A DNA stretch of 62,504 bases, taken from positions 1-62,504 of the forward strand of contig CAJQQZ010000103.1 in NCBI GenBank assembly GCA_905480575.1. The letters run 5' to 3'. Below are positions 43,272 through 46,481 of the stretch, in pieces. Within the stretch, counting starts at the first letter, position 1, and each line of letters starts with the position of its first letter. Below the pieces are notes generated by a model. It did not search any database. It had not been told where the DNA came from and worked only from the letters and a program-made list of their open reading frames with translations. The position numbers were made by a program, and so were the translations under genes. The stretch comes from an uncultured Alphaproteobacteria bacterium (GTDB taxonomy: Bacteria > Pseudomonadota > Alphaproteobacteria > UBA7985 > CAJQQZ01).

Positions 43272-44390
43272 ATGAATTCCCTAGGTATTGATAAAGCCCC
43301 TGAAGACACCCGCGTGGTCGTAGCCATGTCGGGCGGTGTTGATTCGTCCGTGGTGGCTGCCATGTTGAAGGAGCAGGGCTATGATGTGATCGGCATTACG
43401 CTCCAGCTTTATGACCATGGCATGGTTCTGGAGAAAAAGGGCGCTTGTTGCGCTGGCCAGGATATCTATGACGCCAGTCGTGTGGCCACAGATCTCGATT
43501 TTCCTCACTATGTTTTGGACTACGAAAGCCGTTTCCGCGAAGCTGTGATCGACGATTTCGCTGACTCTTACATGCGCGGCGAAACTCCCATTCCTTGTGT
43601 GCGTTGTAATCAAACCGTCAAATTCCGTGATCTTCTTGCCACCGCTAAGGACTTGGATGCAGATGTCTTGGCGACTGGTCACTATGTGCAACGAAAGGTG
43701 AGTCCAGAGGGAAAATCCGAGTTACATCGCGCCTACGACGATACCAAAGACCAAAGCTACTTCTTGTTCGCTACAACGCAGGAGCAGCTGGATATGTTGC
43801 GGTTTCCGCTGGGCGGACAGCCTAAATCTGAGACACGCGCTTTTGCAGAGAAGATAGGCTTGGTTGTTGCCGATAAGCCGGACAGCCAAGACATTTGTTT
43901 TGTCCCTGACGGCAACTATGCGTCGATCGTATCGAAGATGCGTCCTGGGGCGCTTGATCCGGGTGATATCGTTCACATCGATGGTCAGGACGTCGGGCGC
44001 CATGAAGGCATTATCAACTATACCATTGGCCAACGTCGTGGCTTGGGCATTGGTGGCACGGCAGAGCCGCTCTACGTCGTCCGTCTCAATGCCGATGAAA
44101 AGCAGGTTATCGTTGGCCCTAAAGAGGCGCTGGCGCGGAACGTTGTTTATATCAAGGAACTCAACTGGCTTGGTGAAACTTCTAGTGAAACAACGTTTGA
44201 GATCTCCGTCAAACTGCGTTCAGTGATGTCTCCCATCCCCGCTGAACTTAAATTGAATGGCAACGATACAGCGGAGATTTACCTTGCGGAGGCCCATCAC
44301 GGAGTGGCACCCGGTCAGGCTGCTGTCTTCTATCAGGGTGATAGAGTCATGGGTGGCGGCTGGATCGTCGGGGCCGAGCGAGCAGCTTAA
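43272..44390 (+). CDS. mnmA: tRNA 2-thiouridylase MnmA, 372 aa
   Basis: Adds sulfur to U34 of Lys, Glu and Gln tRNAs. The PP-loop [17 protein letters not shown] is at about residues 17-33. The catalytic cysteines are in [13 protein letters not shown] near 113 and [14 protein letters not shown] near 208. The [20 protein letters not shown] segment near 243 is invariant in the family. It is monocistronic here, diverging from the nucleotidase gene. Confidence 0.96.
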
Positions 44391-44495
44391 TTAGCTTGCT
44401 GACGATTTTGACGAACAAATATTTCGTTGAGTTTGTGCTCTTTAATCATTCGTTGCTTTTTTGACGGCCAATAACATTTCCGGTTGCATGGGCGA

Positions 44496-44597
44496 GTTGA
44501 GCTTCCTATAAACCACTCTACCGCAGCAATCGGTTGCGGTGGCTTTAGTGAGTTTCGACCAAAGTTGGGAACCAGTTCCTGGCTTTTGATACTCAAC
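44496..44597. ncRNA. candidate structured RNA element upstream of the rtcB-family gene
   Basis: By eye the stretch folds into a three-way junction. A closing stem GTTGAG/CTCAAC joins 44496-44501 to 44592-44597. A long arm at 44510-44555 has 16 pairs in three helices (AAAC/GTTT, CACT/AGTG, CTACCGCA/TGCGGTGG with one wobble). A short arm at 44561-44586 has AAAG/CTTT and CCAG/CTGG. The pairing works on either strand, so orientation is open. No known RNA family was recognised. The whole gap 44391-44942 also holds the hairpins and micro-ORF listed separately. Confidence 0.35.
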
Positions 44598-44674
44598 CAG
44601 CTAACGTCAGTTTTAACCAGAGGAGTTACGGGCTTTGTCCGTTCTATCAATCATATTTTACCTAACAAGAAAGG

Positions 44675-44699
44675 CTTCGCCTGCGGTCACCGCGCGAAG
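44675..44699. repeat. two-helix hairpin in the mnmA-rtcB gap
   Basis: CTTCGC (44675-44680) pairs with GCGAAG (44694-44699), enclosing GCGG/CCGC around the loop TCA with a two-base bulge. It is followed at about 44729-44758 by a looser CTCTTC/GAAGAG stem. No T-run follows. Confidence 0.45.
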
Positions 44700-44768
44700 A
44701 GATTGCCTCTAGTTAACTAACTGGCTCTCTCTTCCGCGCCAAAGGCCCAGAGAAGAGATGAGCATGCT

Positions 44769-44888
44769 ATGTTCTCCCGCCTACATCAAACTGTGCAGCA
44801 GCTTTCCAGAGCTTCTGCTATTGCTGTTGATTTAGTGGTCTTAGCCACAGCTTTCACGCTGTCATTGGTTATCATCAATTTAATCTAA
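44769..44888 (+). CDS. candidate 39-aa single-helix membrane protein
   Basis: An ATG-started micro-ORF of 39 codons before TAA. The N-terminal part is polar and amphipathic (MFSRLHQTVQQLSRASA); the rest is one hydrophobic stretch (VDLVVLATAFTLSLVIINLI) long enough to cross the membrane. GAAGAGATGAGC upstream gives a modest ribosome-binding site. It ends 54 bases before the RtcB-family gene, with a hairpin between. No family was recognised. It could be chance, as hydrophobic short frames do occur. Confidence 0.4.
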   Translation: MFSRLHQTVQQLSRASAIAVDLVVLATAFTLSLVIINLI

Positions 44889-44908
44889 CTAACCAATCAA
44901 CTTTAGCG

Positions 44909-44927
44909 TGGGGAGAAGGCCTCCCCA
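44909..44927. repeat. hairpin directly before the rtcB-family gene
   Basis: TGGGGAG and CTCCCCA form seven perfect pairs around AAGGC, 15 bases before the ATG at 44943. It can influence ribosome access. It has no T-run and is not a classical terminator. Confidence 0.5.
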
Positions 44928-44942
44928 TGTCTGCCCGAATTA

Positions 44943-46448
44943 ATGAAAGAAAAACAAATGATTAACGGAAAAACCCTCTTGGGATGGGGGTGGGAACCTG
45001 GGCCTAAAATGGGCGAGGCTCTCAAACTGGCCAAACAAATGGAACGCAAAGCTGTCACCTTGGCAGTCATCAAAGAGGAACTTGAGAAACTGAAACCTGC
45101 GCCTATTGTTCGTCTTTCGCGGAAAGAAAAGGGTCTGTTTGCCGAGGCTATTCAAGCTGAAACAGATGAAGAAATCGTCAACCTTGAAGGCGTTCGTCGT
45201 CATATGCATGAGCTGATGAAAACACCAACCTTGTCTGCTGGTGCTGTCATGCCTGACGCTTGTCCTTCCGGGCACGCGCATGGCACAATTCCAGTTGGTG
45301 GTGCGGTGATTTCAAATGCTATTCATCCGGCTTTCCACTCGGCGGATGTTTGTTGCTCCGTGTGGGTTACTTTGTTCGATCATGATCATGATACGACCGA
45401 CTTCATGAACGCGCTCCAGGCTTCAACGCGTTTTGGGCCAGGTGGGCGGAAACGTTCTGGTTGGTTGAACGACCCTGTTTTGGACCCTTTGAACAACACT
45501 ACGAACTACTTCTTACAGGGAATGTATGAGGTTGCTCGTGGACATCTGGCCGACCAAGGCGATGGCAACCACTTCGCTTACGTTGGTGAACTGGAAGCCG
45601 ATGAAACTTTGATCGAAAAGATGAAGGACAATGGTTATGAGAAAACCGCTGGTGTCTTGAAGCGTAAGGGCAAGGTCAAAGCCCTCGTTACACATCATGG
45701 CAGCCGTGGTCTCGGTGTCCGTGTTTACAAACGTGGCATGCATACGGCCAAGATGATGACCCACCGGATCTCACCAGAGACACCGGAACATCAGGCTTGG
45801 ATTCCGTTCGACACTGACGAAGGGCAGGCCTATTGGGTGGCGCTTCAGTACGTGGCGGATTGGACCCGGCGTAACCATCAATTGATCCATGAGCGTACTG
45901 CCGCAAAGTTGCGCGCTCAGATGTTGGATTCATTTGGTAACGAGCATAACTTTGTTTGGAGACGTGGAGAGGACTTCTACCACGGAAAGGGGGCAACCCC
46001 GGCCTGGAGGAAGTCTGATGGCACTAAAACTATTGGTGTCATTCCGCTCAACATGGCACAGCCGATTTTGCTGACTTTTGGCAATGATCAGGAGAAATAT
46101 TGCAGCTTCTCACCTCACGGTGCCGGACGGAACAAAAGCCGGACACAAATGATGAGAGAAGCGGGTGTTTCTCATGAGACCAGTCAAGACAAGCTGGCTG
46201 AACTCTGTGCCAATCAGACAGAAGGTCTTGATATCCGTTTTTACTGCGGAAAGATCGACCTTTCAGAAACACCGATGGCATACAAAGATGCTGAGGCCGT
46301 TCAGCGCCAGATCGACCACTATGATTTGGCCGATGTTGCAGGCCTTATTCGACCGCTTGGTTGCATCATGGCTGGGGACTACGACAAGCCTTGGTTGATT
46401 GCCAAACAAAAGAAGCGTGAAGCGGCCAGATTGGCTGCGACGAGCTGA
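44943..46448 (+). CDS. RtcB-family RNA ligase-like protein, 501 aa
   Basis: A divergent relative of the GTP-dependent RNA ligase RtcB, which joins 3'-phosphate to 5'-OH RNA ends. Matching positions are DVCCSV (metal cysteine loop) near residue 136, GDGNHFAYVG near 203, THHGSRGLG near 242, GNEHNFVW near 334, SPHGAGRNKSRTQ near 391 with the guanylated histidine, and ETPMAYKDAEAV near 443. The usual DVHLGKG loop is replaced by DACPSGHAHG. No rtcA, archease or rtcR gene is nearby. Start codon 44943 or the ATG at 44961 are both possible. A terminator follows. Confidence 0.85.
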   Translation: MKEKQMINGKTLLGWGWEPGPKMGEALKLAKQMERKAVTLAVIKEELEKLKPAPIVRLSRKEKGLFAEAIQAETDEEIVNLEGVRRHMHELMKTPTLSAGAVMPDACPSGHAHGTIPVGGAVISNAIHPAFHSADVCCSVWVTLFDHDHDTTDFMNALQASTRFGPGGRKRSGWLNDPVLDPLNNTTNYFLQGMYEVARGHLADQGDGNHFAYVGELEADETLIEKMKDNGYEKTAGVLKRKGKVKALVTHHGSRGLGVRVYKRGMHTAKMMTHRISPETPEHQAWIPFDTDEGQAYWVALQYVADWTRRNHQLIHERTAAKLRAQMLDSFGNEHNFVWRRGEDFYHGKGATPAWRKSDGTKTIGVIPLNMAQPILLTFGNDQEKYCSFSPHGAGRNKSRTQMMREAGVSHETSQDKLAELCANQTEGLDIRFYCGKIDLSETPMAYKDAEAVQRQIDHYDLADVAGLIRPLGCIMAGDYDKPWLIAKQKKREAARLAATS

Positions 46449-46452
46449 GGAC

Positions 46453-46481
46453 AGGCCGATTTCATCCGAAGTCGGCCTTTT
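46453..46481 (+). terminator. intrinsic terminator behind the rtcB-family gene
   Basis: AGGCCGA (46453-46459) pairs with TCGGCCT (46472-46478), with an inner TTC/GAA helix around ATCC, followed by Ts interrupted by CCC. Confidence 0.75.

Follow-up and report, generated by a model that had tools for sequence, protein, structure and literature searches.

A genus-restricted structured unit with a micro-gene and a possible translational attenuator between mnmA and an RtcB-like gene in an uncultured alphaproteobacterium

The analysed window is a 62,504-nucleotide stretch of contig CAJQQZ010000103.1 from the source genome (referred to as G000), and it was compared with one other genome of the genus (the sister genome, G001). 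In the window, mnmA and an RtcB-like gene are separated by a gap of about 550 bp, which an initial annotation had described as highly structured and as the possible source of an RNA substrate or regulator of RtcB. The coordinates of the gap were confirmed; it also holds micro-ORFs, a promoter-like site and alternative pairings, which that annotation had overlooked. The features of the locus are the following:

43272-44390, mnmA, the upstream border of the gap
44391-44942, the gap between mnmA and the RtcB-like gene
44484-44512, + strand, putative sigma-70 promoter TTGCAT-17-TATAAA, with the transcript start predicted at ~ 44519
44519-44541, + strand, 5' hairpin of the predicted transcript, which is the first arm of a three-way junction (9 pairs in G000, 7 pairs in G001)
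44545-44601 (approximate limits), + strand, stretch of ~ 57 nt found in G000 only, appearing as a gap in the aligned G001 sequence and holding the second arm of the junction
44621-44625, + strand, strong, conserved Shine-Dalgarno (SD) sequence AGGAG, with an anti-SD duplex of -7.9 kcal/mol
44635-44712, + strand, leader frame ORF1, TTG start, 25 codons, LSVLSIIFYLTRKASPAVTARRDCL, presumably translated
44673-44680, + strand, segment 1, GGCTTCGC, pairs with segment 2 (the hairpin at 44675-44699), identical in G001
44692-44702, + strand, segment 2, GCGCGAAGAGA, partner of segment 1 or 3, identical in G001
44726-44739, + strand, segment 3, TCTCTCTTCCGCGC, partner of segment 2 or 4, identical in G001
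44752-44762, + strand, segment 4, GAAGAGATGAG, where ORF A has its ribosome-binding site and its first start codon, identical in G001
44758-44835, + strand, ORF A, a 25-aa micro-protein, MSMLCSPAYIKLCSSFPELLLLLLI, with purifying selection in frame
44769-44888, + strand, ORF B, 39 aa, in a different frame from ORF A, which it overlaps; one segment is hydrophobic and membrane-like
44909-44927, + strand, hairpin of 7 pairs beside the RtcB start, absent from G001
44943-46448, + strand, RtcB-like gene (PF01139, E 2e-31), start at 44943 or 44958
46453-46478, + strand, intrinsic terminator, the apparent counterpart of the G001 terminator directly after ORF B

The initial annotation had proposed a folding-energy test against shuffled sequence. 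In this test, the + strand of the gap (-173.5 kcal/mol, z -4.36) was more stable than all 100 shuffles, of which 0/100 folded as well, and the unusual stability claimed for the gap is thus borne out; the z-score of the - strand was -2.73. The individual elements named in the annotation also form when folded in isolation, namely, the three-way junction at 44496-44597 (-36.5 kcal/mol, z -3.7), the two-helix hairpin at 44675-44699 (-12.1 kcal/mol, z -2.9) and the seven-pair hairpin at 44909-44927 (-11.8 kcal/mol, z -2.0). Searches of the window with Rfam gave 0 matches above the gathering threshold (the best sub-threshold E was 0.13), and ARAGORN found no tRNA in it.

A DNA search of 60 relatives with the gap returned the sister genome as the sole match, with 83% identity over 281 bases, and the same type of search showed the conserved segment to be single copy in the source genome. 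The gene order in the sister genome is kept (CTP synthase, ferredoxin-like, 5'-nucleotidase-like, mnmA, conserved segment and dapA), with no rtcB; the segment is followed by a terminator and then by an unrelated 102-aa frame. This frame (L005:673-981) lies between the unit and dapA, at the position occupied by rtcB in the source genome, and has no Pfam or NCBIfam match. The sister assembly is 84% complete, and its contig is continuous across the place between mnmA and dapA. Between the two genomes, identity at the four-fold sites of mnmA is 48%, and 49% of the codons for identical residues are identical; synonymous sites between the two are close to saturated. In 25-nt windows, the identity to the sister genome was 68-96% across 44616-44840 and 64-96% across 44616-44890, and it was 48-60% at the mnmA end of the gap and 44-52% at the rtcB end. 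The stretch at 44608-44642 is nearly invariant.

The folds fared unequally in this comparison. The hairpin at 44675-44699 is conserved in the sister genome. The three-way junction forms in isolation, but its closing helix and second arm are not conserved as a unit: the closing helix sits within the spacer that separates the hexamers of the promoter-like site common to both genomes and is therefore probably not transcribed from that promoter, and the second arm belongs to the ~ 57 nt that the sister genome lacks. Only the first arm persists and, by our reading of the alignment, includes one compensatory change affecting both sides. The hairpin at 44909-44927 likewise forms on its own, but its sequence is unconserved, lying in the end of the gap with 44-52% identity. 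The strong hairpin at 44545-44601, present in the source genome and not in the sister genome, might be a small mobile palindrome.

The class sample was searched with the ORF A and ORF B peptides and with the RNA model R1 (289-385 genomes; G001 was not among the genomes listed, so only more distant genomes were probed), and only chance-level matches were obtained. In four loci of the order (L035, L036, L038 and L039), mnmA is followed by a tRNA, an infA-like gene or an unrelated gene, and the unit is missing; L034 and L037, read in antisense orientation, were excluded from this comparison. No copy of the unit was found in the viral contigs and plasmids searched. The unit is genus-restricted. 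Only these two genomes carry it, which leaves little room for covariation, and the covariance analysis over relatives suggested in the initial annotation yielded 2 double changes among 46 pairs in the two sequences, none of them in the switch helices described below.

A key question is whether such a unit has anything to do with the gene that follows it. The RtcB-like protein matches solved RtcB structures (E 3e-10) and contains the motifs CCSVW, GDGNHF, HHGSRG, YHGKGA and HGAGR, which we take to be those of RtcB ligases; these similarities point to a divergent type of ligase that is probably active. RtcB of this type is absent from the ten other genomes of the order that were compared, and only 2 other genomes among 289 in the class gave a strong match to it. 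A second, distant RtcB-like stretch (L002, G000:C99:26537-27556) with 30% identity is present in the same genome. The possible starts at 44943 and 44958 have poor SDs at normal spacing, and a 12-codon frame at 44927-44965 (MSARINERKTND), with its SD and start within the 44909-44927 hairpin, overlaps the start at 44958, as in translational coupling. Both terminators, the one after rtcB in the source genome and the one after ORF B in the sister genome, consist of a long stem followed by a T-rich tail. Since the counterpart of the sister terminator stands after rtcB, this gene seems to have been inserted inside an existing unit, and its addition between the segment and the terminator is the simplest reading of the two loci. 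Loss of rtcB in the sister genome is possible but less likely because rtcB is absent elsewhere in the order.

The initial annotation started from the idea that Y RNAs can occur at RtcB loci, and for other organisms this is correct: Salmonella and other bacteria have genes for Y RNAs and for Ro60 orthologues together with rtcBA (PMC7790460). Such rsr-yrlBA-rtcBA loci resemble the present one in that a structured RNA precedes a gene of the RtcB type. The nearest relatives of the source RtcB in the class (~ 50% identity) stand behind a Ro60-vWA gene and four or five copies of a GAATGC..GGAACTACAT motif with tRNA-T-arm-like stretches, relatives in G198 and G260 likewise come after Ro60 and repeats of Y-like/tRNA-like motifs, and in the source genome rtcB has the same direction as the gap RNA, with no clear terminator between them. 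Nevertheless, an RtcB-linked RNA in the gap, either a Y-like substrate or a regulator, is extremely improbable and mostly refuted. In contrast to the Salmonella-type loci, the source genome gave no match to a TROVE/Ro60 protein, and scanning of the gap for the Y stem motif or a tRNA-like (T-arm) module using Rfam, ARAGORN and a motif search revealed none; moreover, the conserved segment exists without rtcB in the sister genome, and the folds closest to rtcB are unconserved. Thus, the part of the earlier proposal that stands is a functional structured RNA encoded in the gap, whereas its tie to RtcB does not, and the conserved unit is very probably not RtcB-specific. In two other Alphaproteobacteria, the gaps between Ro60-vWA and RtcB (L043:446-1490 and L042:916-1500) contain 5 and 4 copies, respectively, of this GAATGC..GGAACTACAT motif, interspersed with stretches that resemble a tRNA T arm, and Rfam and ARAGORN detect almost nothing in these gaps; these arrays are possibly undescribed tRNA-mimicking Y RNAs.

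Within the conserved segment, the clearest signal comes from ORF A. Seven of its codons differ between the two genomes; six of the changes are synonymous (one being in the stop codon), and the remaining one is a conservative non-synonymous change. Random placement of the same substitutions gives P = 0.0016 for this pattern, and in the other frames 6/7 are non-synonymous; judging by its codons, ORF A is a real gene. Its SD is weak (-2.9 kcal/mol). ORF B retains its length and stop in the sister genome. The substitutions in its tail are distributed 5/2/9 by codon position (third-position excess 9/16, P 0.05), and 7/7 replacements there are hydrophobic or small (hydropathy 2.5); these signs are no more than suggestive. 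No family match was found for either frame.

Upstream of these frames, the TTGCAT-17-TATAAA site is the only promoter-like site on either strand that is common to both genomes at the same aligned place. Its counterpart in the sister genome is TTGTAA-17-TATAAA, with the hexamers kept and the spacer diverged, and the matches to the consensus are modest (8 and 9 of 12). The AGGAG sequence lies 9 nt before the TTG start of ORF1 (44635), and the start, length and stop position of ORF1 are all kept in the sister genome. Codon-level selection on ORF1 was not detectable between the two genomes (3 synonymous changes, including the stop, and 9 non-synonymous; 5/6/6 substitutions by codon position). Codons 11-14 of ORF1 are ACA AGA AAG GCT, and AGA makes up 9% of the arginine codons of six genes in the window.

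By prediction, the four segments can pair in both species in ways that exclude one another, with the ORF A site either hidden or free; the effect is weaker in the sister genome. The mean unpaired probability of segment 4 is 0.01 in the free RNA, 0.95-0.97 when segment 1 is occupied and 0.01 when segment 2 is occupied. We then computed the unpaired probability of the ORF A site with the 5' RNA blocked up to a moving edge, which mimics a translating ribosome. In the source genome, it was 0.01 in the free RNA, 0.94-0.95 at edge indices 72-76, 0.77 at 80-84 and 0.01 beyond, and the opening window corresponds to a ribosome edge at ~ 44679-44691. In the sister genome, it was 0.35 in the free RNA, 0.89-0.95 in the same interval and 0.01 beyond; as the two genomes are homologous here, this is not an independent test. 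Upstream-shuffled controls matched the switch in 0/150 cases for the source genome and in 8/150 (borderline) for the sister genome, in a test framed after the pairings had been seen. The ground states of the longer predicted RNA differ, being 1:2 with 3:4 in the source genome and 2:3 with a partial 1:4 in the sister genome. Columns paired in the two conformers were conserved no better than the others (7/37 substituted vs 7/60 in the rest, P 0.38). The leading edge of a ribosome lies ~ 15 nt past the P site, so the open window at 44679-44691 would correspond to a pause at approximately codons 11-14 of ORF1.

Since the ORF A site is predicted to open only with the ribosome edge in the middle of ORF1, and to be shut when the RNA is free or the ribosome is beyond, the unit may be a translational attenuator that controls a micro-protein gene and predates rtcB. 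We hold this reading tentatively, at a little short of even, because covariation is scant, the paired columns show no conservation advantage, the ground states differ, ORF1 lacks a codon signal and ORF A has a weak SD. Under this model, the gap would be a separate transcription unit that is older than rtcB in the source genome, and the promoter at 44484-44512 would give a leader RNA with ORF1 and the four segments, with 1:2 and 3:4 as one arrangement and 2:3 as the other. With segment 1 free of ribosomes, or with the ribosome past it, the start of ORF A, which ORF B overlaps, would be hidden; a ribosome slowed at approximately codons 11-14 would cover segment 1, 2:3 would form, and the ORF A/B start would be freed. 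In the sister genome, the unit would end at the terminator right after ORF B, and in the source genome, rtcB would have been inserted before the terminator and would probably be co-transcribed. Conservation, the promoter-like site common to both genomes, selection on ORF A, the occurrence of the unit without rtcB and the predicted switch are the parts that the comparison shows. The translation of ORF1, the stalling signal, the co-transcription of rtcB and the role of the product enter the model as we infer them.

Comparable arrangements are known. In erm-type attenuators, a leader peptide controls a resistance gene. For erm, a leader frame, alternative segments and a downstream ribosome site that is hidden unless the leader ribosome pauses have been described (PMC11264731). 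The present unit resembles these attenuators in its putative leader frame, its alternative pairing and a predicted hidden ribosome site that a paused ribosome would free; it differs in that its product is a 25/39-aa micro-protein instead of a methyltransferase, and its leader peptide is unconserved. In E. coli, the toiL uORF controls topAI-yjhQ, and stalled ribosomes change the pairing around the downstream ribosome-binding site (PMC12121999). The unit is similar in having a putative uORF upstream whose stalled ribosomes would alter pairing near a downstream ribosome-binding site; the product is unrelated, and no relation in sequence would be expected.

Selection on ORF A and occlusion of its SD would hold without ORF1, which itself lacks a codon signal, and both points fit a micro-protein gene (ORF A and/or ORF B) whose inhibitory structured 5' leader responds to no leader peptide: a trans-acting RNA or protein, or temperature, would open it, or it would just keep translation low. 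We consider this rather unlikely, given that the strong SD of ORF1 is invariant, its frame is kept and the open window coincides with the middle of ORF1 in both species. In the hok/mok/sok type I toxin-antitoxin system, a small hydrophobic product is accompanied by an overlapping second frame, and its start is hidden by mRNA folding. A unit of this type, with the translation of hydrophobic ORF B tied to overlapping ORF A, would account for the 39-aa hydrophobic product, the overlapping frames and the predicted SD occlusion. However, selection is stronger on frame A than on frame B, a sigma-70-type scan of the - strand revealed no antisense site common to both genomes, and the unit is single copy and without a family match; this makes a toxin-like unit improbable. 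Similarly improbable is a small regulatory RNA acting in trans, with frames that are incidental or dual-function: the distance from promoter to terminator in the sister genome, only ~ 0.4 kb with no large gene, would suit such an RNA, but the synonymous pattern in ORF A and the lack of an Rfam match argue against it.

A more far-reaching form of the attenuator model, in which a genus-specific attenuator senses translation stress, governs a pair of overlapping micro-proteins active at the membrane and has recently drawn the RNA-repair ligase RtcB into its operon, is very improbable; if true, the cell would produce its RNA repair upon ribosome stalling. If rtcB is co-transcribed, an RNA repair gene would have been placed under a pre-existing translation-sensing leader. 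The locus shows that RNA structure beside a well-known gene may have nothing to do with it, and that blank gaps in an annotation can conceal strongly conserved micro-genes equipped with RNA switches of their own.
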